A DNA stretch of 64,000 nucleotides. Source: Marisa cornuarietis. Taxonomy: Eukaryota > Mollusca > Gastropoda > Architaenioglossa > Ampullariidae. This document shows positions 12,678 to 49,812 of the stretch, piece by piece; position 1 is the first letter of the stretch; every line of letters starts with the position of its first letter. The position numbers and the translations under genes are program-made. Below the pieces are notes generated by a model. The model saw nothing but the letters and a program-made list of their open reading frames with translations. It was not told the DNA's origin and made no database searches. Location: positions 496,001 through 560,000 of the forward strand of contig SMMW01000126.1 in assembly GCA_004794655.1 (NCBI GenBank), read 5' to 3'.

Positions 12678-13265
12678 ATGAGTCAGAGTCAGACTGAAAG
12701 GTGTCGTGAGGTTTATCTGAGTCTCACTGAGCAACAGGCTGCCTGCCTTGATACAGGTAGGATACACGTCTCACTGATACAAGTATTACAAACATCAGTG
12801 TACTTTAGTATTTGTGTTTGCTTATTAAATCACGCGGTAATACACAAGGTATAAATATCATACCAGGAGGCCGATTAGGACTGGAAACTTTCTCTCTAAT
12901 TCTATTACTCTGTCTATATTTTCTTTTTCTTTCTTTCCGTTGTACTCTTACGTCAATCTTTCTCAGCTGTTTTCCGAGTCGATCGTGTCCTTGTTAGTTA
13001 GGATCCAAAAGATTGACAAAAAAGGAAAAAAGGAAAGGAACATAACTAGAAGAAACGTGTAACAAAATACTAATGTTTATTCATGATAAAACAATAAAAA
13101 ATAAATTGGCTTCGTACAGGAGACATTAAGAAAAAGACCGGCGCTGATGTAGACATGGGCCATCACGCCTCACCTGTATCAGGTAGAAGGATTGTCATCG
13201 TTCGTGGTCATCAAACACAGATTGAGAAGGCAGTAAGTCTCATCGATCACAAGACAGGCGCTCAG
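12678..13265 (+). CDS. Exons 1-2: start and KH-like RNA-binding fold
   Basis: Exon 1 (12678-12756) starts [20 protein letters not shown] and ends in phase 1 before gtagga. Exon 2 (13120-13265, acceptor ttcgtacag, donor gtgagt) reads [13 protein letters not shown] followed by [21 protein letters not shown]. The helix-strand-strand-helix order, with IKKKTGA, a basic RxIVIxG strand and a final AxxLI helix, is that of a type I KH domain. The usual GxxG loop would be TGGD or a degenerate version, and the first strand is short. Together they give 75 residues and end in phase 0, which fits exon 3. They could belong to a separate short gene instead. Confidence 0.6.
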
Positions 13266-13957
13266 GTGAGTGTAGCGGTGATTAGCAGAAAGGAGCACTT
13301 AAAAGATGATACTAATATTGAATATCAATGTGATTAGCAGAAAATAACACTGAACAGTTGGTACTAACATTAAATATCAATGTGATTAGTAGAAAATAGC
13401 ACTGACCACTTGATGTTAGCATTGAATATCAATGTGCTTAGTAGAAAGTAGCTCTGAAAGTTGATACTAACATTGAATAATAACCTCACCAATCTGAAGT
13501 CAAACCCAACACCGGAAACCACACAGCTGTCAAAACATGGACAGTCTATGAAATAAGAACACCATGTGGTGACCACACACTTTGTCGTTGAGTGAGACGT
13601 GGTCCATTAAACACAACTTTTATCAAGCCTTTGATGTGCAGAAAATAACGGAATCTTCTGAAGACGATACTCGCCTGTCCACAAAACCCATCATGTAGCG
13701 CCTGTCTGCAGAAAAAGTCAACTATGGCTAGTATGTATCAAGTAGCACGAATATACTGCTCTGACTAGAGTCTAGTCACTAGACTGTATAAGCTGGTATT
13801 TCTTTGTTTCTCCTGTTATAGAGTTTTGTGTCTAGGTCAGGGATAGCCAACGTCCGGCCTGCGAATTTGCTTTTCCCGAATCATTGTTGTATAGCGACCT
13901 TATCCGAGCCTTCAGATTGGCCGCTAGCTCATGTGACTTACTCTTTAATCCATACAG

Positions 13958-14050
<93 letters not shown>

Positions 14051-20000: not shown

Positions 20001-23000
20001 ACTAGTCTCAAAATTTGAGATGCCACTGTAGGTTGTAATCATATAGATGGTAGCATACCTCATGAAACAAAGAAAACTTCTAACATAATTGTACATATGT
20101 AAAAATTATGAAATTCAAAAAAAATGTTCTTCTGTTGCAGGCACAAAGAAGGGAAAGAAACCCATGACAAAAAGCAAACATGACAAAGTCTTAACTTTGA
20201 CACATGGCATCCTGATAACCGGGCTGTAGATCCAGAAGCATTCAGAAAGCTTTATGATGGGATGAAGAAAATCCACCCACTGCTTGGATTTTGCAAGTAC
20301 TGGTCTTTTAATTTGATTTCTTCGGATTCACCTATGTATAAAACTACAAGTCATCCGCAGACACGCGCATTCGTTAACTCAACACAATCAACAAATGACC
20401 ACTCTGGTGTAGAACGTCCCTCAAAGAGACAAATACTTATTGACCACAAAATTCACAATTTAAATACACAAAGAAATATGCTCAGTACTGCTCTATACAA
20501 GGCAAAGCATCAATAGTTAACACGAGCAGTTAGTCAAACATGATATTTAGCATTTCTTTAAACTCTCACGGCTAGACGTAGCCTGAAAATCCCTCTCTTT
20601 CTGTAATTATTACGCCGCTCAAGCTGACGTAAACAATAAATATGCATACACAAGGAGCAATTGTTGACAAACAATAGTGTCTAACAGGTATATCAAAACA
20701 AAAATATGAAGAAATGTCTTTCAGCGACAGTGCCCTCGGCACCAACACACAAATACTTGGTTCTAACAACAGAGTCAGAATGGGTAGCACACCCTAGGCC
20801 TTATCACCTCCTCAGTAAGGATAACCTATCCGTCTTCCTACTCGTGCTTAATTTCTTCCCACTCTGGACCCGAAGCGCAAACACAAAGTTCCCCACTTGA
20901 CCCTTTTTCTTTTAAAGTTCAAGTTATTTCTTTTTACAAATATTTTAGCAACTCCTCACGTATGAGTTATACAGGGAGGACATCTGGTGCGTCACTCTAC
21001 CTTAATCAAAGTCTTACTTCGTTGGGGATGTTCTTCTGGTGTTAGATCATCGGAAGCTCATGCCTCTGCCTCACGTCAGTGGACGTCCGGAAACTTCGGA
21101 TATCGTCTGTAGGATATCGCCCCCCACGCAAGTCAGTCATTCAGCCTCTCTGTATCGGATGCTCCTCCCCACCTTGGAGATACGCGGACACCCTTTCACT
21201 CGTCTTTGCCGAACCACAGGCCCGTCTATGCGCCAGCTCCAGCCGTCAACACCCGTAGTTTCCCACAGCCTTCCACGCTCTCGGCGGAGTCCCTCTTGTT
21301 TACGTCAGATAAGTTCTCAGACGCCTGTATCCAGATTTCAGCAAAAGTTCTTTCTGTACTGTACCGGTAGTAGAATCACAGCCCTCGGCTTGAATACCAG
21401 TAAGTACGGTGACAACTCTTGTCACTAACCAGCGCTCTCTCTAGCGCCTCACGTCGACAGACACTATGACGACTGGTAGGCCTGAATGAAGACTGCACCC
21501 CCGTCAGTGACAGCACACAGCAGCAACACACCAGGATTGCCGGAATATCCATCGTCCAAATCGAGCATTATCCTACTTGCTAAATGTCGGGTCTAATATA
21601 CCCACCCTTGTTTACATCGCCACAAGGTGAGCTAAGCCCGCCCCACACATAAAATTTTAAAAAATCTAAAACCTCAATTTTCTCATGCAACTCGCATGAC
21701 AGCGACAGAAAAACAAGACACCCTAACCACCTGGACGGATGGAGCTCTGCTCTGCTCGCACGTGAAATAAGGTAAAAACCGAGACTTTCAAGTTCTCGTG
21801 ACTTCCAGCGTGGCAGTGTCAAACCAAGGCACACCTGTGTGTCGAACAAAACAATACTCAACTGCTGTACCCCCTTGTACGCTACAAGGCTCTACATCAC
21901 AGCTTGAACATAGAGTTGTTTATAGGTGAGCAGTTAGTAAACAAGGAACAAGGAGGTTAAAGGATCAAACTTGCAGCACTCTGCTCTATAGAAAACAATC
22001 CCCAGAGTGAGGAATGTAATGTCAACTGCCTTCAAAAGAAAAGGAAAATGAGGAGGGAAAAAATCCGCCGACTAAAGCCGGGCTCCCCTTTACAGCATTG
22101 GGCCTGAGTACACCAGACCCCCTGCCCCCCCTTCTCATCAGGCCTGGACATGACCAAAAAGACAATTGATACAGCACATGCTGTATGCAGCACATCAAAA
22201 ACAGTATTTTGTAGAGTGATCAGATAAGCAAATGAAGTGTGCCTGTTACATGTAGCTCTCTGCAAAAGATGAAGCTACTCAATCACTACTCATAATCAAC
22301 AAGGGTGGGGGTTGGATTATGCTGTAATAAGGGATATATATATATATATATATATGAATGAAGCAGAAACATTCTAGATTAAGTTACAAGTTTTTTATTT
22401 TAAATTTATTCCAAATGTTTTACTAACAGTGTGTATATATATATATAAACATAAATTTGTCAGACTGTTTGCTGCTACAATGTTAGCAACTGGTGACAGT
22501 ATTGCTGAATTATGTTACGTTAAGGAAGGATATAATTTTTTTCAAAAATGAGTATGTGGTACCATCTTCAATTGCTTTTACTTTACATGTTTTCAGATAT
22601 GCTGTGCCTCTTCCACCACTTCCTGCTCCTGATCCCACAAATGATACTAAGAATGAATCATGTATTCTTCAGCATCCAGCAAGTCTTCATGACATCAAAA
22701 CAGCCTGTGATAGCATGAAAGCTTCAGTGCAACTCACTGCACAGGAAACTGAAGACCTAGAACAAAAAACAAGAGAACAGAACATGTTAGAAATGTGGCA
22801 TGAAAGTTGCAGAATCAGGATTACAGCTTCCAAGTTTCATCAAGTGATAAACATGCGAAGAACAACATGTCCTACTGGATTTCTGAAATTACACCTATAT
22901 TCTGACAACTGATGGAAAAGGAAAGCTATGAAACTTGGTCTAGAAAGAGAAGACCCTGCGGCCCATCGCTACTAGCTTCACAAACAGATTGAAGGTGAGC

Positions 23001-26000: not shown

Positions 26001-29000
26001 GAACTTAATCCAAACGCAAAGACGCGCATGCTCCCTGTTTCTGTATCAGTGACCATAAAAGGTAGGAGATGGTCATCACCGTCACAACAGCTGGCCCTGA
26101 GGTAAGTGGAGGCTCTAACACCTCATTCACCTCCGACTATCAGATCAGGGACAGTCCTTTGGTATTGTTTGCCATACTAATTGCAGGCTGTGTTGAAGCC
26201 TGCGCGAAGAAAGACCAGACGGACAGGATATCGGTACATCCAGTGTGGTCTTCCTCCCCCTCCCCCATATTGCTACCCCTTTACTTTGGCTAGGTCGTTT
26301 CACCAACATAAAGCATCCCCACCCACTCGCTGCCGCCACCTTTCCTTCCTAAAGCCCATTAGAGGTATTTCGTCAATTATTCAGCGCATGCACAGTACAA
26401 ACTCGTCGGTGGTCGAAGAAGAAGTCGGGTTCAGCCATTAGTGTTTACTACAGATCGAGATGGGTAAGCATGATCCCTGTTGTGTTATTAACTGTCACAA
26501 TCGTAGATCAAAATACAGAGAGGGAGGACGAACGGCTGGTCTGTCTTCGCTCAGGCTTCAACAGGCCTGGCCGCGCGCAAATCGTGGCGAGTAAACGGCT
26601 AACCGATCTTAGGCGATCTCCCGATCCCACATCGCATTAGCGTTTGTTTTGGGTACTGCCTGGCAATGGGCAAACTGATGTTGCAAGTTTCACCCTAGCT
26701 AGGCCCAACCTAGGTCCAATCTTGTGTGTTTGCTGGGGATAAGGTCCCTATGCAGCAATGATTCGGGAAAAGCAAATTCGAGTCCGGCCCGAGACATCAT
26801 TTGTATGGCAAACCCTGGCGGAACGCAAAATTCAGTGAACCCAAAATTTTTTTAAAATATAGAAACATACATTTATGTTGTAGCGAGACTTATCCGCTTC
26901 TTATATTACTTCTTTTGTTTCTGCGTTTTTTTTAAGCTACCATGTAACAACCTTACTTATTAAGTACGTGGTATTGTTGTGAATCGGCACAATTACAAGT
27001 CTGTGAAACTTGGATGAATTACAAATGGCTTCACGAAAAAGCTTAACTGATACAAAGTACTACGGCTTAATGTAGTGCTTGTAGAGTAAAAGAATAAATG
27101 AATAAGATAAAGAAAAAAGTATGAATTTAATTTTCAAAGTTTTTGGCACAGGCAAACACAGCACAAACACAGCTATTCTGGCTCCAGTGGGTTGAGGCCG
27201 CGTTCCCTGATCTCGACTCTCGCGCATACTTCCTGCCTCCTGTCTACTTCAACCGCGTGCCGATGACATGTCAGTCGGTTGCTGGTCAGGATGTTCTGGT
27301 CCTTCAGTCGGCACCTGGACAGGCCGGTCAATCCAGCCGACCAACCACGAGTCCATCCACTGCTGGACAGACTTCTATTCCTCAGCCTCCTCGTGTTCAG
27401 GACAGTGATGTCAGAGACGACGCAACCATACAGAGGCTACTCGTCTGTCTGCAGGAAATGACTAAACAGAAGAGAGAAGTGTTGGTTGGAATGAGTAATC
27501 TACAGTTTGGACAGTACCTGGGTGAACCTTGCTACTCTGCTGCAGCTGCCCAACTTCCACTACCCGACAACCTTCCTTCTGCTCTGCCTCGGAACTGGAA
27601 ACAGGGAGACTTTGATGTGCTGCTTATTCACCGAGATCATGGTCTTGTCGTCTGTGAGGTGAAGGCGTTTGGTGACAACACACAGACACTGAATATGTCA
27701 CAGCAGGATATAGACAACAACATTAGAAAGAAACTACAACAGGCCGTGTCACAGCTGGACAAGGCGGAGGCCATGTTGTCCCACCTGGTGTCCGACATCG
27801 CTCCCGGTCTGCGCATCACTAAGACCATCGCTTTCCCCAACCTCACGGCTCATCAAGTTCAACAGGCCATCTCCGGCGACACCCAGCTAACTCAGGTTTA
27901 GTAGCATTCTGTCCTCTTTACATAAAACACCACCAGTAATAATAACTGCTTTTTAAAATTGACATCTGCTTTCTGTCGGTGGAAGATAAGTGTTGGCTTG
28001 CGATGTTTTTAGATTTCGGTCAACATGTTTTGAGTAAGTCCGTCTGGGGACAACTGAGCAACATGTCTGAACCTCCAAACCCTCTGTGAAAATTAAGAAT
28101 TTAAATAAATGACTTAGCTCTTAAGAAGTCTTGCACAAGTGTTTAAGAAGAAAACATGCTAGACTGAATTTTTGTGATGATTCAATGTCGCATGTTTCTT
28201 TTGATTAAAGAGAAGGGGGGCATGTCTACAAGCTTGAAGAGTTCATGAGAGCGAAGGCCGCCATTTTATGTTACTCTGTACACGTCCCCAGCCTGCAAGA
28301 GATTCGGGATTTGTAAGGGACCCGTATGGGAGGATGGGTGAAAATGTGGGCTATGGGCTGTGGCGCTCATTTATGGCCATACATCCCAACGGGCGTAACC
28401 GTTACGCGCTTTACACTGACCCGTATGTCGGACATTTCGCTCGCCGTGTGACCCCGCGCCCGCATTAGCTGACCAGCTGCAGGATTGCGTACTCGCCTCC
28501 GGCTGGGATTCCACCGTCAACAACCAGCGCGTCATCGCGTCTCGCTACTCGCTCTTTTCCGACTGACAGTTACACGGCTTTGTCCATTACATCACATCAC
28601 AGGAGCGCACCACACGTCTTGAAATATTAAGTGAGTTTAAAAGTTCAAGTTAAACTAAGCTCTAATATTATAGTATTAATTATTTACAAAAGTTGAGACT
28701 TGTTTATCTAGTGTAGTGCTTTGTTGTATTTGTTCAACTTTTAGTTTGTATAAACCAGTCCGATCGAGCTATCGCAGTGAGTTTACAAATTAGTAAGAAT
28801 TAAGTGTGCCCTCTTCTTTCTTCTTCTTATTCCTGTACGCTCCCAGTGGAGCATAGGGCCGCAACCACACCCCGCCAACGGACCCAGTTCTGGGCACTCC
28901 TTTCTAGTTGGGACCATGTCATGCCAGCTGTCTCTGCCTCTCTGTGAACTGATCTCCACGTCTCTCTGGGTCTCCCAACCCTGTGCCTCCCTTGTGGGTT

Positions 29001-30781
29001 CCAGCCCAGAGCTTGTCTTGTTAAGTTGTCGGCTGGCTTTCGTAAGGTGTGACCAATCCAGCCCCACTTCCGCTTCCTGATGTCGTGGCTGGCAGGTTTT
29101 TGATTGGTTCTCTCCCACAGGTCTGTATTGGAGATCTTATCAGGCCATCTGATGTTGAGGATGTGGCGCAGAGATCTGTTGACGAATGTCTGTATCTTGT
29201 TAGTAATGGCATTTGTCACCCGCCATGTCTCGGATCCATAAAGAAGTATTGCCTTTACATTTGTGTTAAAGATGCGGATTTTGGTGTGTAAAGATAGAGC
29301 TTTGGAGTTCCAGATAGGTCGTAGGGTGTGGAATGCAAGCCTGGCTTTGTTTGTTCGGCTTCTTACATCCTCATCTGAACCTCCATCTTTGCTGCCAAGG
29401 TAGGTGAAACGGTCAGACTCTGTAATGCATTCCCCATGCAGTTGTAGTGGGGCTTCTTGCTTGTTGTTGACCCGCATTACTTCCGTCTTCTTGATGTTGA
29501 TGGTCAGGCCCGTCATCGCTGCTTCTTCTGCGAGCCGAGTGAGCTTTGTTTGTGCGTGTTGTTGTTTGTGGGACAGCAGGCTGATGTCGTCTGCAAAGTC
29601 GAGGTCTTCAAGTTGCCTGGCGAAGGTCCACTGAATGCCCGTGTTACTGTTAGAGGTTGTTCTTCTCATGATCCAGTCTAGGACGACCAGGAAGATTGTT
29701 GGTGAGAGCATACAACCTTGCCTCACTCCAGTCCTCACTGCGAAGGGGTCAGTCAGCTTTCCGTTGTGGATCACCTGGCATTCTCATACAGGTGTTGGAT
29801 GATGGCAATAAAGTTTGGTGGAAATCCGTAGTGCTGCATCAGTTTCCAGATGGTTTCCCTGTCTACGGAGTCAAAGGCTTTCTCAAAATCCACAAAGGTT
29901 ATGTATAGTGGTGCCTGCCATTCAATGGACTGTTCAATAATATTTCGTAGTGTAGCGATTTGGTCTATGCATGATTTTCCCTACCAAAAGCCTGCCTGTT
30001 CTTGCTCAGTCTCTTGTCTAGGGCATTTTTAGTCTCTCCAGGATGATTCTGGTAGGCACCTTGCTTGGAGTGGACAACAGCATAATCCCACGCCAATTGC
30101 TGCATTGTGTCAGGTCGCCTTTTTGGGTAGCTTTACTAGGTAGCTAAGCTTCCAGTCTGCTGGAACTTGTTCCTGTTCCCAAATTTTCTTCAGCAGTGGG
30201 TGTAACATCTCTGCTGCGGCTGTTGGATCTGCCTTTAGTGCTTCTGCAGGAATGCCATCTGGGACTGCCGCCTTGCCAGACTTCAAGGACTTGATGGCTT
30301 TGATGATTTCTGCCTTGGTTGGTGGGCTGTTGTTTACTTGAAGCTGTTCGGGGGCTGGGGGAATGTCCAAGGTGACGTCTCGGGAAACTCTGTATGCGAC
30401 ACTGTCAGTCAATCGTCGCTTTTCAGGCACTTGGCGTTGGGTGTAGTCGCGGCAGCTGACAGGACTGCCACTCTATCGTATTGTGGGCAATAGTCAGCAC
30501 GTCTATCCAGTCTTTGACCTTTGTAACCCATTTCTTCCTCTGATCACCGCGGATACGTCATATGTGTCACATGATCGAACTACTCCGGTTACAACAATAC
30601 AATACAATACGACTTTATACCCAACGGCAATTCCAGATAGTGCTCGCACTAGCAGTAATACATACATGATATAAAATAGATAATACATATACATGATATA
30701 AGAGGAGATGATACAGACATATACACGATATAAAAAGATAATGTATACATGTTAAAATAATCTATTTCTCCCTCGCGCGCA

Positions 30782-33800: not shown

Positions 33801-36800
33801 TAGGTATTATTTCCCGATAGTCAAGATCTGTTGTAAAAATAATTGTGACATTAGCTTAACTACCTTGCTGTAAGGATACTGTTTTATTGCTTTGTTTGGA
33901 GAATTTTCTTGTGTATTCTTTGCTTGTTTAACTCGACATTGAGTTTAATAATAATTACTCGTGTCTCTGGGAGGGACGCCCTACAGTCTACACCAAAGTG
34001 ATCTCTTTTTGTTAATCTTTTAGAAAGAAGACTTTTAGAATGTCAGCTGCTAGTGCGTGACACCCCGAGAAAAGTGAGTCTCTGACACCTCGCTTCACAA
34101 TTACCTTAAAAATGGTTACAGGACGACCTTTACTGTTATTCTCATTTCAAGACATCCTGCTCAACTTGTCGGTTGCATGGTATCCTATGAGGTCAAGGAT
34201 CAAAGCTTGAGTCATTTTATGTCAGACATAACAAAGCGATTACTTTGCTGCATGAAAATTACAGAAAATGTACCTGACATGTCAAATTACTCCTCACAAT
34301 CAATATTTTGATGCTTTTCATGACAGTAAGCAGTTTGTGAAAAAGACAAACCGAACTCTTAAATTTAATTAAAATATCTAAGAGATGTTGGTTCTGCATA
34401 CTAGTTTATCCATATGTTCATATTGAATTGTTTTTGTGAAGTTATTATTAACTGCTGGCCAAGTTAAGTAAAAGAATTATCTTTGTAGTGGCACCGTATC
34501 TGTGCAAGTTTTTGTTTCCTCACTACTTTACTGACAGTCAAAGCGAGGTGTTTGTCTATAGGACTAGAGACAGAAATAAGTAGTGACTAGACACTATGCA
34601 TACTCTGAGCATGCGCAGTGACAACACTTACATGTATCCTCTCTCTGCCCTGCATGCTTAAAGTGTCCACTCTGAAAATTAAAGTTGATTTGTTTTCTAT
34701 TTTCTGTTATTAGAAGGTATTATTGCAATATTAAAAAAACCCAACATTTGTAATTGTATTCTAATTTTGTTCTAGGAAAAGATGTGTTAAACGGCTTGTA
34801 GCAATTATAAACTGGCTTACACATGTTTAAAAGCGGTTATAGTAGTAAGATTGAGAGGAGATGTTGACAAGCAAACAACAAAACATGGAATAAAATAATA
34901 ACAACTAATTGTTCAACGGTTTGGATTTCAACAAACTGCTATCTCCAAAATAATTGAACAGATCGCAATAAATATGTCAACAGTTGAAACAATTAGTTGG
35001 TCTTCCTTTAACTCGCTTGCGTTCATTTTTCACCTATGGTAGACAATATAATTAACTGTCGCCGGGAGACACGACAAGTGGAGGGACACTATGTGTTGGG
35101 GAAGTGGAGGCTGAATGTTCCTAGAAAGGTGCGTTGTATAAGTGGATTTGTGTCTTGCATGTTTATATTAATTTGTTTTTTTTTTTGTAATTGTCAATAG
35201 GCGCAGTCTAGGGCCGGGAGTATGTGGCCATGAGTCTTTGGGCCTGGCTAATGCCAGGAAATAAATGGAGTGTTTTTACTCTGAAGAATTTATCCTGGAG
35301 TATTTGGATAGTTTTTACCCTGAACTATTTATCCTGTAGTATTTAGAGAGTTTTTACCCTGAACTATTTATCCTGTAGTATTTGGAGGAGTTTTACCCAG
35401 AACTATTTATCCTGCAGTATTTGGAGAGATTGTACTCTGAAGTATTTATCCTGTAGTATTTGGAGAGTTTGTACCCTGAAATATTTATCCTGTAGTGTTT
35501 TGACCCAAGAAAGTTGCCATCGCCTGTCCCCAAAAGTCAACATCGAGGTGTTTTAACGTCTGTACTCCTAGTGAAGGCCTCAGTGATTTTTAAGATATTC
35601 GTGGAAATAATATATAATTTAGTTTCTTGGATTAGTGTAACATCAGACTGAAGTTAATGTAATTAGTAGTGTTGTGAAAAACAGTATCAAGTGTGAACGG
35701 TATAAAAGTGTCCTTGTGACGAACTATTAAACGCTAGTATTCTTCTGTTGACAATCAAAATGATAAAAAGAAACTTTCTATTGTAATAATTGAGTTGTTG
35801 AATAATGAGTAGCTTTTTGGATGTGCAGTAAGAATTAGTTTTTTTTTAACAATTTTATTAATTCCGGTACAACATTATTGTTAATATAATTAAATGTACA
35901 CAGGGCCAGCAAAGAGGCAGATTTAGTTTTATTGCTAACAACTAAAGAAGAAAACGAGCAAATGTCCAGGCGAGTACGTGAGTGTCAGTGTCTGTGACAG
36001 CCATGTATTCACATTTCTTTCTATTTTCCACGGGAGCCGCCATTTTCACATGACATGTGCTGATGAGGGCGAATATTCGGTTTAAACAGTTTTATCGTCT
36101 TTAAACCAGTTTTAGAAAAAGTTCTGAATCTGTGCTGTTTAACGCTTTTGCAAAAATTCTATAAATTGCTTAAACTAATTAAATTTAAGGTGACAAAGTC
36201 TTTGAAATAAGACATGTGTTGTACGACAAATACATGGGCTCTCAGTCATAAGATCATAGGTTTAACATATCTAGCCTTCTTGAGATGTTCATTATTGTCC
36301 TCCTTACATGGCACAGAGCCTGGTCTACACGCAAGTATAAAGTTATTATTTTTTGAAAATATATCTATCCTGTTACCATACTGAGCTACAGACCCCTGTT
36401 TAAATTGCATGTAGTGTTTATGCTGAGGTCTTTCAGTGTACACATCATTACATCTGTCGGCTGAGAACATCTTTATATTTGGGTCGTTTACTGTTTACAC
36501 CATGGGCTTCTCTTTCAGGATCTGCGTCGAAGGTTGGGAACAACAGGCCCCGCCGACATCACTGGCCTGTGCCTGTGCTCTGATCAGTTGTCTGACCCCA
36601 AGACCCCGTGTGACGTCAGTAGTCACGTGCTGAGGGAACTCGGACACTGGTGGCAGCGACGTGTGGCTGGGGCTGGACCTGATAGTCACATGACACCTAA
36701 CGTGTACAGGACTCTGGTGGCCAGGTAAGTGGTAGAAGTGTAGGTGATATGATAATACAGCGACGTGTGGCTGGGGCTGACAGTCAGAACACCACCTTGA

Positions 36801-39800
36801 ACATCTACAAGAGTCTGGTAGTCAGGTGAGTCTTTGGGAGTAACAGCCATGTTAGCGCTTTTCAAAATTTTATAAAATGCTTCAGTGCTATCTGGGTAGA
36901 TATTTTACTTCCTTTCATCACACACAATGTAAATGTCAGCCTGTCGTCAGGTGTTTTCCTATCTTTGTTAAAAAATGTGCTGGTGAGGCCACTTCTAAAG
37001 AAATCCACGCTTGATGTCAATGTGCTAAACAACTACCGTCCAGGTTCTAACTTGTCTTTTCTCTCTAAGATCATAGAGAAAATAGTTTTGACAAAGCTCT
37101 GGGCCTACTTACAAGAGCACCATCTTATCCCACAAGCTCAGTCGGCATATAGACCTTTCCACAGCACTGAGACCACTCTTATTAAAGTAACGACAGACTT
37201 ATTATCTGCCCTTGACAGTGGTGATGTTTCTCCCTTAATTCTAGTGGACCTGTCTGCTGAATTAGACACAATAGACCACTCTCTGCTCCTTCATAGGCTT
37301 CACACCCTCTACGGGATTTCTGGACCTGCCCTCTCATGGTTCAACTCCTATCTCCCAGTCTGTGTTAGTTGACGGTCAGACATCTCGCCCTCCTCCAATT
37401 CTCTGTGGTGTTCCCCAAGGCTCAGTACTTGGCCCAGTTCTGTTCATCCTGTACACTAAACCACTTTCATCGTGCATCCGGTCTCACCAGGTTTCTCATC
37501 AATCCTATGCTGACGACACGCAGCTTTACTGTTCTACTCCACTGGCTGTCTTACTCTGCTATTAGCTCTATAGATGGTTGTATCAGCGATGTCAAGGACT
37601 GGACGGTAAAAAACAAGCTTTAACTAAATGATGATAAAACGGAAGCCCTCTTGTGCCATAGAAGAAGACATCAACCTCCACTCGTCAGTCTGCCCAATCA
37701 CATCAAGGTGGGCGACAGCAACATCACCTTCACGTCATCCGTTAGGAATCTGGGATTTATTGTCACTGATGACATGACACTCGATAGACATGTAGCAGCT
37801 GTCTGTCAGCCTGTCTATTATGATAAACATGTTGCAACTGTCTGTCAGTCTGCCTATTATGATAAACATGTTACAGCTGTCTGTCAGTCTGCCTATTATG
37901 ATAAACATGTTACAGATGTCTGTCAGTCTGCCTATTATGATAAACATTACAGCTGTCTGTCAGTCTGCCTATTATCAGATCCGTAAGATCAGTACCATCC
38001 GTCATTTTCTCTCTACACGCGCTACCAACACTCTTGTCTGTGTTTTTGTTCTTTCTCGACTTGACTACTGCAACTCCTTGCTGGCAGGCTGCCCTTCATC
38101 CCTCATTCAGAGACTCCAGAGAGTACAGAACTCCGCTGCACGTCTGGTGCTTAGAGCCACGAAACGGGACCATGTCACTCCTCTCCTTCGTTTTCTACGC
38201 TGGCTACCCATCTGTTTTCACATCCAGTACAAAATGTCTGTGCTGTGTTTTAATTTCTTTGCAGGCTCCTGTCGTGATTATTTCTATGAACTTCCCTTCC
38301 CTTACATCCCGGCCCTAATTCTACGCTGTTCCTCTAATGACCGTATCCTAACTGTTCCTGTCACCAGAACAACAACATATGGTCACAGGATTTTTGGCTA
38401 CTGTGCAGCAAAACAAAGGAACTCTCTCCCTTTCCATATCCGCCACCTTCCTACAACTGATTGCTTTAAATCTGCACTGAAAACACACCTCTTCCTTGAG
38501 CATTACTCCTAACACAGTCCTCACAATGCTCGTCTTGCTGACCCCCCCCCCCCTCTGCTCTTGCTACCTGTGTACCCATCTTTCTCTGCAGAATCACTAT
38601 ATTCCATATTCTGTTACTTGCTGCCTTTTTGTGTTTTCCGTCTTTGTTTTGTTTGTCATCAGTATTGTCGTTTATTCTTCCGCCCCTTGTGTTCTATCCA
38701 TTTAGTCCATGTCTCTTCCTCGTTTTAAGCGCTGAGCATGCTCTCTATGAGTGTGAATATGCGCTATACAAATCTTGAGAGTTGTTCACAGGGATCTTAT
38801 TTAAATGTTCGACGCTAAGGTCTCGTCTTCGTATGGTTGAGCCATATTGTTGTGTGTAAGAGATGACAGAACGCGTGGCGCACAAGGCCGAAAGCAGATT
38901 GGAGGTAAACACTAAAATCCTTCTGAGGATAACGTCACGAGAAGTAGTTCCGGTCAATAAGTTGCGCACTCTCTCGTATTTGCTTGGTGGCCTCTCCACG
39001 CAGAGAAAGTACCGATTCAACTTTCTTTTAGTGCATTAAACACACTTCTAGTGACAATCATTTACTAATTCGTCTTCGTAAGAAAAGTAAACAGTTCAAA
39101 TTGTATCATGACATTGATTATTGTGTGTAGTTCACTGTTAATACCGAGTACAAGACGATTTTGCATTCAAAGCGAGCTCTCATATGACCTTTAACATTTA
39201 TATATAAAAAATCTACAATTCATTTCTTATTGATTTGAGTAGATTCTGTGGTCCGGCTACAACAGTGAGTGTGCCATGTATATGTCCTCCACGTGTGAGT
39301 GTCAAGACCCTGGGTCAGGCCGTGTGGTGTACAGGAGAGTGCTATACTGCTGTAATAACACTCTTCCCGGAGCAACTTCACCTGCTCAACACGGCGCCTC
39401 CCAGACTCTTAGTCACCGGACCGCCCGGTACAGGTAAAACTGTGGTGCTGCTGCTGATGGGCATAGAATGGCTGCGATGGGATCACCCCGTCTACATTGT
39501 GAGTACTTGGAGTGAGAGTCTTGCAGCGTGCATCATGTTGTATCACCTGTTGCTGCAGACAGTAAACACACAACAGTCAGCAGGTGTATCACCCGGTCAG
39601 CCTCACCTCCTGCAGTATGATCATTATGATGATAAAGACATCGAGAAAGCTGTCAACGACTTGTCACAGGCGGCGATTGGAGGGTCGTTGTACGTCATCG
39701 CTGATGAAATAATGTGTGATTACAAGTAAGTTGTACAACTTGTGATGTGATGTTAACAGTGAGCGCCGTCTACCTCTCTATCTTATTATCACCACCAGGG

Positions 39801-43388: not shown

Positions 43389-43433
<45 letters not shown>

Positions 43434-45496: not shown

Positions 45497-45556
<60 letters not shown>

Positions 45557-48500
45557 CGTTGCATAAAAGTGAAGTGCGACGCACTCTTGTATGCTTCAGG
45601 ACGTTTTTTCCTCGATTCTATATTTCCAGTTCACTTTCTACCTCTTCCACACTAGACATTACATCAACTTCCCGAAATCCAAATTTCTTGTACAATTCTA
45701 CATCTTCGTAAAAAGATCATTGTAACTAAATATCCTGTTTTTTCAAAGATTTGGAGTATATTGTAACAGCATAGCCACGACGGCCGCCATTTTACCTGCG
45801 CTAATAGGCGCCTATTGGCGGCTCTCCCCTGCCCGTAATCTATTAGTCAATAGGGCCGACCAAAGGGCTGATAACTTCGACCTGAAGTCCAAAGTAGCGC
45901 GCGTAATAGGTGGTAAGCGAGCTATTGGCTGATAAGCGGGATAAAGGCGCAACATGAAATCCACACCAGTACCCTTAGCCCGGACAATAGTGTTTGCTTT
46001 CATTGCTGCAGACTGGTCGTCGGCGATGAGCGGTGAAAGCAGACGGGTGGTGCGACACCGTCGCGCCGGGAAGTGGTTATCTCGGTTAAAAGATTGGTAG
46101 GTTACGCAAGGGCAAGGAGGGAGTGTGTAACGACACCACGTGGACATTGCGTTTTAACCGTTGCACGATTGGCTAGTTAAAGAAACGCAGGTATTGTGAG
46201 AGAATACGAGACCTAACGAGCCAATGAGAGACCACTGACGCACCTGACGAAGTGAGAAGGAAGGAGACACAGAACATTGCTTTTCGGGAGTTGGAGTTTG
46301 GACTATCTCTATCTGCGAGTGATCCGTAGTTCCACCAGCTAGCACCACTCGGGTCTAGGGGTGAAATAATCGGATCACAGATGACAGCCTGACAGGGAGA
46401 GGAAGATCGCCCGCATTGAGCCAATAGCGTATGTCACAACGTGAGTGAAGGCGACTCGTCTCGAGGGACGGAACTACACCTGCAGTACGGTTCTAGCGGT
46501 CTGGGGACAGGGTTCCCGAGGTAGCAGACCTAAGAGACAGCCAAAACCCTGGCGGAGAGGACGGCACGAGTTCGTCAAGTATACTGTGTGTGTTCTTCAG
46601 GACGGAATACTGTGTGTGTTCCGTAAACCACCCCAAAGAGAATGGCTGAAGCAGTTCGAGAATCATCTTCGAGGAATGGTGGTCGGGAACGGACTGCGTG
46701 TCCGATCGTATGTATGTTTGCAAACATCTAATGTGGTTCACTTATGAACGGCAGTAGCTTAATTTTTGATTGATCGTTATATATATATATATATATATTC
46801 AATTTCATTATATGATCCTGTAATGTGCTCAACTAATTTTACTTTTTGTGTAATTACAAGTTTATATGATTTACAACTGTGTTGTCAGTTGTGTGTGCAC
46901 ACGCGGGTGATCGTGATCGCCAGTGGGTAAGCGTGTGAACGTGCGAATCGTGGGTGATTAGGTGTGAGGGGCCAAAAGTGGGTAAAGCGAGTCCCAGTCT
47001 TGCTGATTAGTCCAGATCCTTCTTACCCGTTATGATATCGTCACAAACACATCATCACCAGTCGTATCTTTATCCAGCATAATGCTCAAAACAACTGACA
47101 GTGTGAAGGGACCATTGATGTGCGTGATCGAGACAACTAAAACAGGAATAAAAAAAGGTTTGAGGATAATAAAAATATTATAAGGAGCTTAAACGGGAAC
47201 ACGTGCGATCGAGTATCAGTAAGTAAACAGAAAATTTTGCATGCAGCTAAATGAGGAAAAAATAAGTTTTTACATCGATAAACATGTTTCAAACTATCAT
47301 TATATTATTAATAGTAAAAAAAAAAATCATTATCAGCAGTCAGTTGTAACTATCTATTGTTGCCCATTAAATTTTGATCTGATTGACTTACCAGTCTGTT
47401 GAATGAATTCAGTTTGCAACCATTTAATTATTTTAACTCCTTTTGAAGCTTCTAAATAAAGTTCCAATCTGTAGGGCTGTATCCCAAATTCAGCTGTTTC
47501 ATTTTTTTGGGCAAAAAAAAAATCGCTTCTTAAACACGACAACCTGAGTGATGTTTCTTCATTTGACTTGAAGACACGCACACTCGCTGTTATAAATACT
47601 TCGATCCCTTCCTAGTTGCAGGTGAGAATGCCGATGTTTGAAGGCTTATATCTTAAAATTAAGGATCATTATGTACTCATATTTTGGGAATTATTATTTT
47701 GAAACGAACTTAACCTGATTATAAACAAATAATGCTGCACTCTCTTAGAACTTTAGGATTTAGAAACGTGTCGTGCAACTCAGCCCAAGTGTTTTGCAGG
47801 TGATAATTCCTCAATGGCTTTGACACCTGATGGAGGTGCTGCGATGTGAAAGTAGATTTGTTGTTACATCGGCTGTTACACAGATCGTTTAGCAACACGT
47901 GCCATTATTGTGACGTCATTTAATTGATGAGTTTATTAATTGAAGTTGTCATAGATGATACAGAAATACACATATTAGTGACAGTACACAGTGTAAGACG
48001 TGTAGCCACATCCTTTGTTACAGATCTGTCAACAGATCCAACTACTTCCAGAACTTCTATAACGAGCTGCTGAAACGAGTTCCTCGTCTCCATCTTTGGG
48101 TGGCAAGTAGTTTCCATAGAGACGCACTCGCCGACTGTAAAGTGGAACATTTAACCAGACCCCTCCGCTCGCCACCAGCTGTCGTCAGGCAAGTCGAGCA
48201 GGACGAGAGGATCACTAGAGAACGTCTTGTCCACCCGTACAGTGAGCGTGGTGTACCCGACCACACAGACGGCCCGCCAATCACACGACTGCATCACAGA
48301 GGTCAGGGTCACTCAGGTGACAGGCCAGGTGACTGTGTCACGTGCGGTCGTGAGGTGGCCAGCTTCCTACACAGTCTCCGTGTTGGTGTTTCACGTATGT
48401 GTGGGTATTGTGTAGTGTAATTGTCGCGTATAGCAACGAATCCGATCGCTCTCCAGTGTAAAACAAACGACACGCACACGTGAGAACAATACAAATACAC

Positions 48501-49812
48501 GTTTAATGGCGGGGGGAGGGACCAAACGAAATAAGAGAAACAAGGGAGAGAACAAAGAACACAATGGGTCACAGAGAAAAGTGGACGCCTTCGTCTGCCT
48601 AGTGCCACCCCCTCCCCGTCTGTACCATGAAATATCGCCCCTCTACGGGAAAGAACTAGAGACGAAAGTTACTCTGCCCGGACCACAGACTTCTAACGGA
48701 CGAATGTCACTTCGCTCGCATAACGGACTTCCCACAGTTGAAGGCTAGATCTTACTCTGTTCGCTCAACGGATTTCTAACAGATGATGAGATGAATGTTA
48801 TTCCGTTCAGCAACGGCCTTCTAGCAGATGAATGTTATTCCGTTCATACAACTGTCTCCTCACAGATGAATGTTACTCCGCTCAGCACCGGACTCTCCAC
48901 AAATGAATGTTACTCCGTTTACACAACGGATTTCTAACAGTTGATCTATTCTGGTGACAGCTCCTCTGTCTCCCAGCTTCTTTATCTTCCAGCTCCTCTG
49001 TCTTTCAGTTCCTCTGCTTTTTCTACTTTTCTGTCTTCCAGCTCCTCTGTCCTCCTTAACCGCTCTCTCTCTCTCTCTCTTCCCATCACCCCACGCGCCA
49101 GTTACGTAAAGACCAAAAATAAAAATTGCGTCATATTATAGTGATGCAGCAACTCCCCCTTCGTCCAGAAGTAAGGCTCGGGCTGAGCCAGCATGCAACA
49201 CGCGACAGTAATGTTGTTTACAGGTGAACACCTACCTGTGTAATAATCAGACAGGTGAGAAACAGTTTTGTGAAGAAGACAGTGTGTCAGTGATGTGTGT
49301 CTGTCAGTTTAAATCACGTGATGATGTCATTGTTTATATCCACGTGTCTGTCAGTCTGTACGCTGTATCTGTGACACGTGACTTACAGAATAAACAAACT
49401 GTGAATGTTGACAGAGAGTGGCACAACAACATCTACAACAGTCACCTGCACCAGCGGCGGCACAACACCATGTCTACAGTGGAGAGACGTGCTGGTGTTG
49501 TACTGTCGTGACGTTAGTGACAACTCGGGTATGGTGACGGAACTGAAAGAAGCGGGTATCCCAGTGCGGGTGATGAAGGATGAGGACATCGAGGACGTGG
49601 CCACGGCCCGCAGTGACGTGGTGTGGGTGACGGGTGCACATCGTGTTCGTGGTCTGGAGAGAAAAGTTGTCGTCTGTGTGAACGAAGCTGGTAATGACTT
49701 GATTAGATCTCGTATAAGTCAGACAACCCCCCTGTGCTCCTTGACCTCTCCCCGACTTGACTTCATGTCCCGCTGTACATCACAACTTGTCATTGTCTCC
49801 TCTGACCACTAA
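12678..49812 (+). CDS. KH-like / NERD-like nuclease / SF1-like helicase protein, 7 exons, predicted 808 aa
   Basis: Proposed join: 12678-12756, 13120-13265, 27152-27895, 36519-36724, 39243-39725, 48024-48394, 49415-49812. The phases agree at every junction, there is no internal stop, and the total is 2,427 nt. Domains: KH-like at residues 25-75; NERD-like PD-(D/E)XK nuclease with D230 and E244-V-K246; P-loop NTPase with Walker A GPPGTGKT at 451-458, Walker B acidic pair D546-E547, a late helicase-type motif [10 protein letters not shown] at 755-764 and a final [10 protein letters not shown] at 795-804. No signal peptide or membrane span is seen, so it is probably intracellular. Inference: a nucleic-acid-binding nuclease-helicase, possibly in defence or nucleic-acid surveillance. 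Doubts: the KH exons are joined to the rest only by phase across a 13.9 kb intron, the exon 3 donor (gtttag) is weak, and the exon 6/7 join has an alternative. No poly(A) signal was recognised close after the stop. Confidence 0.7.
13963..14049. repeat. (CA)n microsatellite
   Basis: Near-perfect CA dinucleotide repeat of about 87 bp with one G interruption near 14004. Open frames here in several phases are repeat artefacts. Confidence 0.95.
14214..16300. other. No gene seen (part of the 13.9 kb intron)
   Basis: AT-rich sequence with only short open frames (113 codons or fewer) lacking recognisable motifs or paired splice sites. A G-homopolymer tract lies near 15318-15328, next to GCAGTGGCGTAGGAAG, a phrase often met at repeat ends. 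I see nothing else. Confidence 0.5.
16360..16760. repeat. Dispersed non-autonomous repeat, inverted copy of 7580-7962
   Basis: Read on the reverse strand, this block follows the same order as 7580-7962. It has the CGCGCGAGxGTG region, an AT-rich stretch with a TATACTTCATGGT-like string, TGAATATTCATGACT, then the GC-rich portion with GGCAATGGxCAAA and CCTAGCTTGGGCC. The two copies are about 8.8 kb apart, inverted and clearly diverged. Confidence 0.65.
17400..17632. repeat. GGGCC palindrome-rich repeat block
   Basis: Multiple TTGGxCCAA-like half-sites (TTGGACCAAG, TTGGGCCGAT and others) precede the terminal phrase GTGTTTGCTGGG shared with the copies at 7962 and 26739. It is the same family as 2270-2450. 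Confidence 0.55.
17830..18345. other. Strongly G-depleted plus-strand segment
   Basis: About 500 bases contain very few G on the plus strand but abundant C, A and T. The flanks are normal. Such strand asymmetry is uncommon in this window; the only comparable stretch is 41640-42700. No coding frame is recognisable. It may be an LTR or UTR of an element read from the minus strand. Confidence 0.5.
18606..23464 (+). pseudogene. SWIM-YqaJ protein of copy 2, interrupted
   Basis: The first exon region reads [15 protein letters not shown] and ends VAYCECVAG. The next segment after ttgcag gives [20 protein letters not shown], completing the SWIM finger, with [20 protein letters not shown] to about 19466. 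A later segment (about 20175-20320) reads [20 protein letters not shown]. After the LTR insertion, acceptor gttttcag at 22597 opens [20 protein letters not shown] through [15 protein letters not shown]. The YqaJ core at 23024-23464 has LGASVDRI and ILVELKNP (D...ExK) and [20 protein letters not shown]. Defects: an out-of-phase SWIM junction, a frame change near 22900, an in-frame TAG near 22970, and the 1.5 kb insertion. No PHD finger was found after 23464. Confidence 0.75.
20351..21886 (-). mobile_element. Solo-LTR-like element, family A copy 1 (minus)
   Basis: The reverse complement begins TGTAGCGTACAAGGGGGTA and contains ACACAGGTGTGC, GGTTTTTAC, GAGCTCACC and GGGTGGGTATATTAGACCCG (a TATA-like element). 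It ends near AACGAATGCGCGTGTCTGCGG. The same order of blocks occurs at 53064-54572 on the plus strand. No gag, pol or integrase frame is adjacent, so this looks like a solo LTR or a non-autonomous copy that inserted into the YqaJ gene of copy 2. Target duplication was not resolved. Confidence 0.7.
23880..24015 (-). pseudogene. Inverted fragment of a YqaJ-protein segment
   Basis: Read on the minus strand, [13 protein letters not shown] and KTKAMKL parallel [13 protein letters not shown] and KGKAMKL of the plus-strand gene at 22868-22945. The piece lies between the two convergent genes of copy 2. It is about 130 bp, out of frame with anything else, and probably a remnant of a second, inverted element or a rearrangement. 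Confidence 0.6.
24430..25930 (-). pseudogene. DDE transposase with HTH_Tnp_4-like and DDE_Tnp_4-like domains
   Basis: The minus strand shows [12 protein letters not shown] near 25810, then a long open stretch 25772-25413 with [20 protein letters not shown] and [20 protein letters not shown], the helix-turn-helix that precedes DDE_4 transposases. After a noncoding gap, 24740-24430 reads [20 protein letters not shown] with a catalytic-type Asp in SDRF, EPGNSI, then a stop. In a shifted frame [11 protein letters not shown] carries the next Asp, followed by VNLPPF. The final Glu block was not recognised. The noncoding gap (about 24745-25410) may contain an intron or a deletion. It is inactive as read. 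The N-terminal THAP finger expected upstream is missing or degraded. Confidence 0.75.
26058..26140 (+). mobile_element. SINE 3'-tail fragment
   Basis: GGAGATGGTCATCACCGTCA then CAGCTGGCCCTGAGGTAAGT and GGCTCTAACACCTCATTCAC follow the same order as the body of the tRNA-derived SINE at 32173-32455. The tRNA-like head is absent. Confidence 0.6.
26460..26580 (+). pseudogene. THAP-like N-terminal fragment
   Basis: ATG at 26460 opens [20 protein letters not shown]. The CxxxxC spacing and following basic residues match the start of a THAP zinc finger. The fragment breaks off into the repeat that follows at about 26590, before any C-x2-H pair. It may be the displaced 5' exon of a transposon or a host gene first exon with its donor near 26470 (GGTAAGCA). 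The latter cannot be excluded. Confidence 0.45.
26600..26745. repeat. Dispersed non-autonomous repeat, GC-rich part only
   Basis: GGCGATCTCCCGATCCCACA, GGCAATGGGCAAAC, CACCCTAGCTAGGC and TGTGTTTGCTGGGG match the 7808-7962 block in the same orientation. The AT-rich half of that repeat is missing. Confidence 0.7.
27152..27895 (+). CDS. Exon 3: NERD-like PD-(D/E)XK nuclease domain
   Basis: The acceptor is tttttggcacag and the donor CAG|gtttag. The frame is open throughout for 248 codons (protein residues 76-323). After a Ser/Thr/Pro/Gln-rich linker comes a helical segment ([20 protein letters not shown]), then GDFDVLLI followed 14 residues after the second Asp by EVK in VVCEVKAFG. This is the D...ExK arrangement of restriction-like nucleases, as in NERD domains. 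A later helix [17 protein letters not shown] places a Gln where NERD families often keep one. The GC-rich coding composition stands out against the AT-rich flanks. Cleavage activity is inferred from the motif only. Confidence 0.75.
27896..28826. other. Intronic sequence, no gene seen
   Basis: No recognisable exon or element. The segment 28250-28560 is more GC-rich and holds a 66-codon open frame without known motifs. Confidence 0.4.
28827..30560 (-). mobile_element. RTE-like LINE fragment (reverse transcriptase, no endonuclease)
   Basis: The longest frame, 29774-28827 (315 codons), carries the RT palm [20 protein letters not shown] and [11 protein letters not shown] with the FADD catalytic box. 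A maturase-like C-terminus follows with [38 protein letters not shown] and [10 protein letters not shown]. Upstream in the same orientation, 30430-30110 reads [20 protein letters not shown], the N-terminal RT block. The two are separated by frame breaks near 29780-30110. No endonuclease domain is present, so the copy is 5'-truncated. It lies inside intron 3 of the nuclease-helicase gene. Clade assignment by eye is tentative. Confidence 0.85.
30786..30823. repeat. (CA)n microsatellite
   Basis: Uninterrupted CA repeat of about 38 bp. Confidence 0.95.
30890..31800 (-). mobile_element. Rex1-like LINE fragment (central RT)
   Basis: The minus strand reads [37 protein letters not shown], a [10 protein letters not shown] block and [17 protein letters not shown], then further down (about 31310-30890, with breaks) the RT core beginning near [10 protein letters not shown] and continuing to an FAYRPG...DDA...[14 protein letters not shown] stretch. 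This order is typical of Rex1/Babar-type LINE RTs. The YADD box and C-terminus are missing here, but a plus-strand fragment of that C-terminal part lies at 43670-44245. Confidence 0.75.
32173..32455 (+). mobile_element. tRNA-derived SINE
   Basis: The head contains an RNA polymerase III A box TGGCCGAGTGG (32183-32193) and B box GGTTCAATTCC (32227-32237) at normal spacing. The body follows with CAGTCGACCCAGCTGATGGG, GGCACCACCCTCATG, GGCCCCGAGAAAAGTGGGGT and a tail near GGGATGACCTTTAC. The tRNA-like part no longer forms a clean acceptor stem, so it is a SINE rather than a tRNA gene. Body or tail fragments recur near 26058, 34067 and 45005. Confidence 0.85.
32660..34066 (+). mobile_element. Solo-LTR-like element, family A copy 3 (diverged)
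   Basis: Blocks shared in order with 53064-54572 are CGGTTTTT, GAGTTCACCTTCTGTCCA, a TATA-like GGGTATATAGACCGC, CCTTCCACAGG then GTGTGCTGCCC and TCTGACTCTGTT, GTGTGCTGGGTGCAC, GACATTTG, and GAGGGACGCCC near the 3' end. It ends AGTGCGTGACA. The 146-192-codon open frames inside it are not recognisable proteins. The left boundary is approximate. Confidence 0.6.
34067..34145 (+). mobile_element. SINE body/tail fragment abutting an LTR end
   Basis: CCCCGAGAAAAGTGAGTCTC then TGACACCTCGCTTCACA and GGACGACCTTTAC match the SINE at 32173-32455 from its GGCCCCGAG block onward. The join to GTGACA of the preceding LTR is immediate. Confidence 0.65.
34146..35030. other. Intronic sequence, no gene seen
   Basis: AT-rich sequence without open frames of note or recognisable repeats. 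Confidence 0.45.
35037..35997 (+). mobile_element. Solo-LTR-like element, family B copy 1
   Basis: It shares AGACAATATAATTAACTGTC near the left end, GAGACACGACAAGTGG, TGTGTTGGGGAAGTG, AAATGTACACAGGGCC with CAAAGAGGCAGA, and GAGCAAATGTCCAGGCG with the block at 50905-51749. Both end in TGTGACA. The two copies have the same orientation but lie on opposite sides of coding exons, so they are not the LTRs of a single element. A tandem repeat has expanded inside this copy. Confidence 0.6.
35266..35500. repeat. 39-bp tandem repeat, about 6 copies
   Basis: The unit reads GTTTTTACCCTGAACTATTT followed by ATCCTGTAGTATTTAGAGA, with small changes between copies. It lies inside the family B LTR-like copy and is absent from the copy at 50905-51749. 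Confidence 0.85.
36519..36724 (+). CDS. Exon 4: helical segment before the P-loop domain
   Basis: The acceptor is ttctctttcag and the donor CCAG|gtaagt. The 206-nt frame is open and enters in phase 0, leaving in phase 2. It encodes [20 protein letters not shown] through [17 protein letters not shown] to VYRTLVA, ending in an Arg codon completed by exon 5. I recognise no named domain. Its position suggests a linker or part of the helicase N-terminal fold. A truncated near-copy lies 36 bp downstream at 36761-36825. Confidence 0.7.
36761..36825 (+). pseudogene. Truncated duplicate of exon 4 with its own splice sites
   Basis: CAGCGACGTGTGGCTGGGGC repeats the 3' part of exon 4. The encoded RRVAGADSQ...IYKSLVVR parallels RRVAGAGPD...VYRTLVAR. 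It is followed by GTCAG|gtgagt and leaves in the same phase 2 as exon 4. Its own start would need phase 0 input (acceptor aatacag), so it could only replace exon 4, not follow it. A decayed duplicate or a rare alternative exon are both possible. Confidence 0.6.
36905..38785 (+). mobile_element. L2/CR1-like LINE, 5'-truncated
   Basis: The frame opens [20 protein letters not shown] with [15 protein letters not shown], then [51 protein letters not shown] and the catalytic YADDTQLY. After the palm, [13 protein letters not shown] leads into a tandem-expanded segment and then [53 protein letters not shown] and KTHLFL before the stop at 38510-38512. A 3' UTR ends near GCTATACAAATC. Frame breaks occur near 37372 and 37560-37650. 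It lies in intron 4 of the nuclease-helicase gene in the same orientation. Confidence 0.9.
37789..37977 (+). repeat. In-frame 39-bp (13-codon) tandem expansion inside a LINE RT
   Basis: Five consecutive copies of a 39-bp unit encode [13 protein letters not shown] or close variants. Related LINEs normally carry this segment once between the palm and [11 protein letters not shown]. The last copy is shortened. The frame is preserved throughout. Confidence 0.9.
39243..39725 (+). CDS. Exon 5: P-loop NTPase core (Walker A and B)
   Basis: The acceptor is ttgatttgagtag and the donor ACAA|gtaagt; phase 2 in and phase 2 out. It encodes [20 protein letters not shown] with PPGTGKT, the typical Q-motif plus Walker A arrangement of superfamily-1 helicases and DUF2075/Schlafen-like NTPases. 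[20 protein letters not shown] (a motif Ia-like strand and helix) follows, then a His/Asp-rich stretch, and [13 protein letters not shown] with the Walker B acidic pair DE. ATP binding is well supported. Unwinding activity is inference. Confidence 0.8.
40020..40900 (+). pseudogene. Myb/SANT-like accessory protein remnant
   Basis: A degraded first part (about 40130-40200) reads [20 protein letters not shown], resembling the W-x-x-I...AVN...RT helices of Myb-like proteins in Harbinger elements. After gttgcag near 40736 comes [20 protein letters not shown] then [16 protein letters not shown], a stop, and DSGDK, matching the conserved TGGGP...L...ML...G(I)xGGxD tail of that family. It has stops and an unclear splice pattern, so it is nonfunctional as read. 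Confidence 0.5.
41200..42956. mobile_element. Candidate LTR-like element with palindromic end
   Basis: The right end is TCACGGGTCGATCCGTGACA, a perfect short palindrome-type terminus matching the GATCCGTGACA string that follows family A copy 2 near 54588. The interior is G-poor on the plus strand and holds a TCTGGTCAGGACTTG tandem array. No coding frame is recognised. The left boundary and the orientation are uncertain. Confidence 0.35.
41848..42010. repeat. Short tandem array with TCTGGTCAGGACTTG units
   Basis: Five units start TCTGGTCAGGA or TCGGGTCAAGA and alternate between about 24-bp and 29-30-bp lengths, the longer ones ending TTACACAAAT. Confidence 0.8.
43391..43430. repeat. (TG)n microsatellite
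   Basis: Uninterrupted TG repeat of about 40 bp. Confidence 0.95.
43670..44245 (+). mobile_element. Rex1-like LINE 3' end
   Basis: The plus strand reads [20 protein letters not shown] then KSFSVS, a stop or frame break near 43771, then [56 protein letters not shown] and [12 protein letters not shown]. This is the typical post-palm end of a Rex1-type LINE. The 3' tail GGGACAAATAAAGTATTATC ends in TTATCTTAT repeats, the short-repeat tail expected of this group. The 5' part is missing. Confidence 0.85.
44840..45390. repeat. Diverged tandem duplication, unit about 280 bp
   Basis: Two copies share the order TAATAGAAACCTTACACACT (or TAATGGAAACCTCATACACT), AAGAAGAAC(T/C)GCACCTTTC, AAAGAGATTT and TTTCACATAGTTCTG. 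Each is followed by a TGTTGATGTACTAA phrase (about 45075 and 45370). A SINE-tail-like GGGATGACCTTTACC lies between them. Confidence 0.6.
45500..45552. repeat. (CGCA)n/(CA)n microsatellite
   Basis: A CGCA run passes into a pure CA run. Confidence 0.95.
45780..46990. other. GC-richer noncoding block, no gene recognised
   Basis: It begins with an imperfect palindrome around TAATAGGCGCCTATTGGCGG and contains several 80-110-codon open frames on both strands without known motifs or paired splice sites. It may be part of an LTR or of the Harbinger-like block that contains it. A short AT repeat lies near 46777-46799. Confidence 0.35.
48024..48394 (+). CDS. Exon 6: second helicase segment
   Basis: The acceptor is cctttgttacag and the best donor CAC|gtatgtg, entering with one base that completes a Lys codon and leaving in phase 1. 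It encodes [20 protein letters not shown] then ASSFHRDAL, where LHLWVASS sits at the motif III position of SF1 helicases. A charged segment follows, then [20 protein letters not shown]. The frame is open to a TAA at 48418-48420, so an unspliced form would end with about eight extra residues. Confidence 0.7.
48655..48945. repeat. Degenerate minisatellite (AGATGAATGTTACTCCGTTC units)
   Basis: About six units of 40-50 bp repeat GATGAATGTTA(C/T)TCCG, then a short variable stretch, then CAACGGA and TTCTAACAG. It lies in intron 6 of the nuclease-helicase gene. Confidence 0.75.
49415..49812 (+). CDS. Exon 7: helicase C-terminal motifs and stop
   Basis: The acceptor is aatgttgacag, entering in phase 1. 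A Thr/Ser-rich linker leads to [20 protein letters not shown], then [20 protein letters not shown] and [10 protein letters not shown], ending in SSDH and TAA. The GLExxVVV and SRCTSxLVI strings sit where motifs V and VI lie in SF1 helicases. An alternative exon beginning at 49224 ([14 protein letters not shown], acceptor tgtttacag) is open for 95 codons in another frame. Using it would require a one-base frame change near 49478, so I prefer the 49415 start. Transcript evidence would settle this. Confidence 0.65.

Follow-up and report, generated by a model that had tools for sequence, protein, structure and literature searches.

A seven-exon gene of the snail Marisa cornuarietis encodes a KH-like fold, an apparently intact NERD-type nuclease and a UvrD-like helicase and is one member of a large caenogastropod family

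The subject of this study is a window of 64,000 nucleotides from the gastropod Marisa cornuarietis (assembly GCA_004794655.1, contig SMMW01000126.1, positions 496,001 to 560,000 of the forward strand); unless stated otherwise, coordinates refer to this whole stretch. An original prediction, made from the sequence alone, had proposed that seven exons of one animal gene join in phase without an internal stop and encode 808 residues, and this model was confirmed. Splicing the exons gives a coding sequence of 2427 nucleotides for 808 residues and a stop codon, the number of internal stops is zero, and all six introns are of the GT-AG type. The GC content of the coding sequence is 53.2%, compared with 40.6% for the window. 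The probability of finding a random open frame of 808 codons at the same composition is about 1e-15, a rough value, as the exons had been picked to fit. This probability and the homology described below rule out a chance chain of open reading frames; the six GT-AG introns rule out that the window copy stems from a prokaryote or a virus.

When 5.8 billion proteins were searched with the product, 171 matched at E ≤ 0.01; among the best 120 of these 171, which are the ones listed, 118 are named gastropod proteins. When 120 family proteins were compared with the window by means of tblastn (E ≤ 1e-3), exons 2 to 7 were matched and no other place. Exon 1, which comprises 79 nucleotides, had no match at this threshold, and a relaxed search gave noise only; it is supported by a start codon, a donor site, and 26 residues resembling the N-termini of relatives, and is the weakest exon of the model. 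Homologues span all six junctions: junctions 2, 3, and 4 are crossed by unbroken alignments, whereas junctions 1, 5, and 6 lie within stretches of variable length. At junction 1, a shortened loop is common to the window copy and P0017, its near neighbour in the tree described below. The product aligns lengthwise with many uncharacterized snail proteins, the part encoded by exon 1 being the least firm, and the seven-exon gene is real.

All exons lie on the + strand, and their order corresponds to the predicted succession of a KH-like part, a NERD nuclease, and an SF1 (superfamily 1) helicase in one animal gene, with the limit that the KH part has no GxxG loop. Exon 1 (12678..12756) carries the start codon, the N-terminus, and the first part of the KH-like fold, and exon 2 (13120..13265) its second half. 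Residues 29-68 match positions 25-64 of the 66 positions of Pfam KH_1 (E 0.0011, 19.1 bits, cut-off 21.5); the match is only partial because the GxxG loop, which is absent from the alignment of the window copy, is gone. In relative P0034, KH_1 is matched at positions 5-66 with E 2.1e-13, and the predicted model of P0009 has, in residues 22-91, the beta-alpha-alpha-beta-beta-alpha topology of type I KH domains. Among 134 proteins scanned, a GxxG pattern upstream of NERD was found in P0031, P0034, and P0048 (GTGD in P0048); for 10 of the 134, in which the NERD core was not found, the scan covered the first 400 residues only. Due to the loss of the loop in the window copy, RNA binding via the KH part is doubtful. 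The ampullariid branch probably acquired the fold together with its GxxG loop, which would have been lost later, and the remnant is more likely to serve as a scaffold or protein-contact module than as an RNA reader.

Exon 3 (27152..27895) encodes a linker helix and the core of the NERD nuclease, as indicated by the Pfam model NERD (PF08378), by the exon 3 nuclease model m693e356b9d0d (predicted local distance difference test, pLDDT, 84.2), by structure matches, and by a bacterial NERD profile. The Pfam score of the window copy is 21.6 bits for exon 3 alone and 19.1 bits for the whole chain, in both cases just below the cut-off of 22.1. NERD was matched at E ≤ 0.01 by 13 of the 51 relatives in alignment A2, which were picked by length and spread from the first 120 proteins; the scores of P0001 (30.1 bits) and of the bacterial relative P0134 (39.2 bits) are above the cut-off. 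The comparison of the NERD core profiles of gastropods and bacteria gave E 1.6e-7, above 60 shuffled controls. The putative catalytic residues are Asp 230 (codon 27614..27616), which is an aspartate in 113 of the 116 relatives with a residue there, and Glu 244 and Lys 246 of the E-V-K motif (27656..27664), conserved in 102/116 and 104/116 relatives; the fourth conserved nuclease residue is Gln 276 (27752..27754; 111/115). Note that these residue counts, and those given below for the helicase, were taken over all 120 listed proteins, including isoforms of one locus. All four residues are present in the window copy and are invariant with bacterial NERD proteins in 19 of 19 chosen rows. The NERD-type nuclease domain is thus apparently intact. 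Exon 4 (36519..36724), which was matched by tblastn as were exons 2 and 3, encodes the end of the NERD region and a conserved WW segment.

The helicase begins in exon 5 (39243..39725), which encodes a GPATTV segment and the first lobe with Walker A (39418-39441) and the DE of motif II (39703-39708), and is completed in exon 7 (49415..49812), which encodes the second lobe with the GLERK of motif V (49651-49665), the SRC of motif VI (49768-49776), and the stop codon. The nuclease triad and these four helicase motifs were found where the original prediction had located them. The window copy has the features of an SF1A (UvrD-like) helicase, namely tandem RecA lobes and the intact motifs I, II, V, and VI; UvrD is the top VIA match. 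Among relatives, Lys 457 is conserved in 99/100, Glu 547 in 93/98, Glu 758 in 91/95, and Arg 796 in 93/97 cases. The model of the SLFN-g3 helicase (PF09848) scored 13.8 bits for the window copy, at a cut-off of 24, and matched 9 of the 51 relatives at E ≤ 0.01; P0001 reached 34.5 bits, which is above the cut-off. Exon 6 (48024..48394) contains a PLRSPP motif (48160-48177) and the pattern H-x4-H-x7-C-x2-C (48295-48345), whose residues are highly conserved among relatives (His 644 in 99/100, His 649 in 98/104, Cys 657 in 103/103, Cys 660 in 101/101) and possibly form a metal site. This H2C2 site is missing from the bacterial relative P0134.

The nearest relatives listed are uncharacterized proteins of Pomacea canaliculata, followed by those of Littorina, Babylonia, and Batillaria. 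Among the best 120 of the 171 matches, at least 62 distinct loci of P. canaliculata are represented, on contigs of many differing sizes. A second protein search gave 4 matches, all from gastropods; a third gave 17, comprising 14 named caenogastropod proteins, 2 others, and P0134. As these searches are word-based, diverged proteins of other phyla may have escaped them. A quick maximum-likelihood tree of 114 rows (no bootstrap, midpoint root, some isoforms kept; 21 of the 134 retrieved proteins were omitted, namely P0001, P0002, P0063, P0134, and all those shorter than 560 residues) grouped the window gene with 48 rows from Pomacea, a clade supported by a Shimodaira-Hasegawa-like approximate likelihood ratio test (SH-aLRT) value of 100; a clade of 36 rows, exclusively from Littorina, has the same support. 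The Pomacea proteins P0058/P0062, P0127, and P0130 lie outside the main Pomacea clade among rows of Batillaria, Babylonia, Nucella, or Littorina, and therefore some paralogues seem to be older than these lineages. The closest retrieved protein shares 74% identity with the window product over 626 columns, so that none of those retrieved is a clear orthologue. P0099, P0113, and P0128 are long frames of 701-813 residues on contigs of 2.5-3.5 kb, which is compatible with spliced transcripts but is no proof of them. P0001 from P. canaliculata, which comprises 1318 residues and has P-loop regions near 384 and 1084, may consist of two family copies fused in tandem or result from merged annotations. 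Judged by these comparisons, the window gene is one copy of a large caenogastropod family with a separate radiation in Littorina; its expansion and divergence fit an immune role without proving it.

No relative turned up when viral contigs and prokaryote genomes were scanned with the family alignment, and bacterial kin were reached solely via P0134, which entered as a match with E 1.8e-3 in the third protein search. P0134 is a NERD-UvrD protein of 566 residues and is recognized by the PADLOC models RTasNERD-Hel (C3a187; E 1.9e-65) and NERD+UvrD (E 7.8e-26). Its relatives come from 13 prokaryote loci, 10 of which were read as alphaproteobacterial; three of the 13 are partial matches. A bacterial profile built from P0134 and 10 complete relatives is collinear with the gastropod profile over 471 columns (E 1.1e-12, a match without a shuffle control of its own), which bears out the suspected kinship to nuclease-helicases of prokaryotic defence. 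Both groups have NERD followed by SF1A in one chain and share the register D-x4-H-x3-G-x4-E-h-K; they differ in length (about 566 residues compared with 808 in the snail), P0134 has neither a KH model match nor the H2C2 site, and the bacterial genes lie directly downstream of a TmtA-like frame.

In all ten loci with a complete gene, the NERD-UvrD gene is directly downstream of an open frame matching PADLOC TmtA; three of these matches resulted from one scan, and seven are based on the last 225-400 residues only. The TmtA-like frame was observed upstream of position 5001 of the bacterial loci L001-L010; in two of them, L003 and L006, it includes sacsin and NOV_C domains. It comprises 1619-1666 residues in six loci and is shorter in L001, L002, L005, and L004 (225, 684, 1049, and 1223 residues), which may mean that some copies are broken or split. 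The arrangement suggests that TmtA and NERD-UvrD constitute a two-gene form of that anti-phage system, which carries the name Tiamat. Nhi is a single nuclease-helicase protein; PADLOC Nhi matched P0113 weakly (E 2.2e-5) and in the P-loop region only. Among anti-phage systems, Mokosh type I and Nhi-like ones are listed with NERD (PMC10952713, Table 1 for the latter), and in type 2 BREX NERD is given as a nuclease domain of PglW (PMC12839542).

On balance, we consider it rather probable that the window contains an intact member of a NERD and SF1A family that expanded within caenogastropod lineages, and that this family either descended from the single-chain NERD-UvrD proteins of bacterial defence or goes back to an ancestor common to both. 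For its mode of action, we follow the original proposal and infer that the protein might sense or destroy foreign nucleic acid. The SF1A motor would engage single-stranded or end-bearing nucleic acid that is foreign or aberrant, for example nucleic acid of viruses or replication intermediates of transposons. Binding or hydrolysis of ATP, together with the H2C2 module, would then change the conformation, and movement or clamp closure would position the NERD site. The adjacent nuclease, licensed in this way, might cut the bound nucleic acid or, as an abortive response, self nucleic acid.

Alternatively, the protein could be a nuclease-helicase of DNA repair or replication stress, doing a job like that of DNA2 on damaged self DNA, with an expansion unrelated to immunity. 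DNA2 combines a nuclease and an SF1 helicase in one animal protein, the Dna2 structure is at rank 16 of the Foldseek matches, and UvrD, the top VIA match, is itself a repair helicase. The nuclease of DNA2 is of the RecB/Cas4 type with an Fe-S cluster and its helicase is UPF1-like SF1B; the snail protein combines NERD and SF1A and thus belongs to other subfamilies. A Dna2 model was absent from the 13 Pfam families reported at E ≤ 10 for the window protein and from the 25 of 28 families shown for the 51 relatives; no direct comparison was made. A family with at least 62 loci in one snail and with radiations in separate lineages does not resemble single-copy repair enzymes, and the closest prokaryotic relatives found are associated with defence. 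We therefore regard a repair function as unlikely.

The predicted resemblance to Schlafens was substantiated at the level of structure. SLFN11 and SLFN14 are the best Foldseek matches, aligned with model residues from about 104 to 798, and the linker (SWAVDL domain) and SF1 helicase of the vertebrate group III Schlafens (such as SLFN5, 11, 14) appear to take the places of NERD and helicase in the snail protein. This allows for the idea of a Schlafen-like nucleic-acid sensor or fork blocker, in which the motor acts as a clamp and the nuclease is a minor or signalling output; SLFN11 is reported to bind single-stranded DNA between the helicase lobes, and ATPase activity was not detected (PMC9482658). 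The Slfn core RNase domain is not among the 13 Pfam families mentioned above, the N-terminus being KH-like instead, and most relatives have retained the nuclease residues, for which a pure sensor would have no use. We consider this Schlafen-like reading quite unlikely.

With respect to ancestry, a PDB sequence search with the bacterial relatives gave SLFN11 as the best match (E 3.2e-9), followed by UvrD1 (8.5e-8). With the gastropod profile alone, P-loop matches were obtained, the best having E 1.9e-4. A mixed gastropod-bacterial profile matched SLFN5 (1.4e-8) and SLFN11 (4.9e-8), but this is weak, as equal or better scores went to arsenite ATPases (7.1e-12) and CDC48 (2.9e-8). When structures are compared, the Schlafen linker (PF21026), named SLFN_GTPase-like in Pfam, resembles the PD-(D/E)XK nuclease fold; the sequences do not support this. 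The test for a link between NERD and this linker at the sequence level failed, the score being 10.6 compared with up to 18.2 in 100 shuffles, and the bacterial NERD profile gave E 0.65 with one aligned column. At the positions of the nuclease Glu and Lys, the linkers of SLFN11, 5, and 12 read T and L/F/H. It is a tentative possibility, on which we would not rely, that the family still represents the ancestral form of the C-terminal half of Schlafens: A bacterial-type NERD-helicase would have entered animals, snails would have kept the nuclease and multiplied it into an immune repertoire, and the vertebrate linker would be the same nuclease minus the catalytic Glu and Lys.

Every large intron had been predicted to be filled with transposons, which was borne out only in part. 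In a check of ten chosen frames of the window for transposon domains, reverse transcriptase domains, probably from elements of the LINE (long interspersed nuclear element) type, were found at 28830-29783 (-), 36830-37369 (+), and 58897-59802 (-). The first two lie inside introns 3 and 4; for intron 2, only a YqaJ-like match at 22976-23461 (+) and exonuclease matches were obtained, all below the cut-off. Elsewhere in the window are a transposase fragment, DDE_Tnp_1_7, at 61839-62258 (-) and a frame with a THAP domain at 8332-8637 (+). That the copies are mostly drifting duplicates, spread by segmental or transposon-driven duplication, and that the window copy is recent and possibly silent, would accord with the reverse transcriptase fragments in its introns, the catalytic residues lost in some copies, models that are short or contain unrelated domains, and the 74% identity of the closest protein, but is very unlikely in view of 808 stop-free codons, six canonical introns, the preserved catalytic and helicase motifs, and a nuclease exon that is 71% identical to that of P0009 (68% in the larger alignment).

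Single-protein nuclease-helicases as such are already known. The original prediction knew of no described animal family with this architecture; DNA2 shows that an animal protein with nuclease and SF1 helicase exists. For the gastropod family, no description was found among the matches listed from open-licence PubMed Central papers, a collection outside which most subscription papers lie. The terms "helicase" and "nuclease" do not occur in the main text of the P. canaliculata genome paper (PMC6129957).

If the preferred reading, a snail family akin to bacterial defence nuclease-helicases, is true, caenogastropods, including the invasive apple snails, carry a large unnamed nuclease-helicase repertoire related to bacterial anti-phage proteins, and one more family would join the few defence systems common to bacteria and animals. 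The two separate snail radiations would be places in which to seek pathogen-driven selection, and the unexplained linker domain of human Schlafens would, if the proposed ancestry is true, gain a testable origin. The gene of M. cornuarietis may belong to a hitherto unrecognised system by which snails defend themselves against foreign genetic material.
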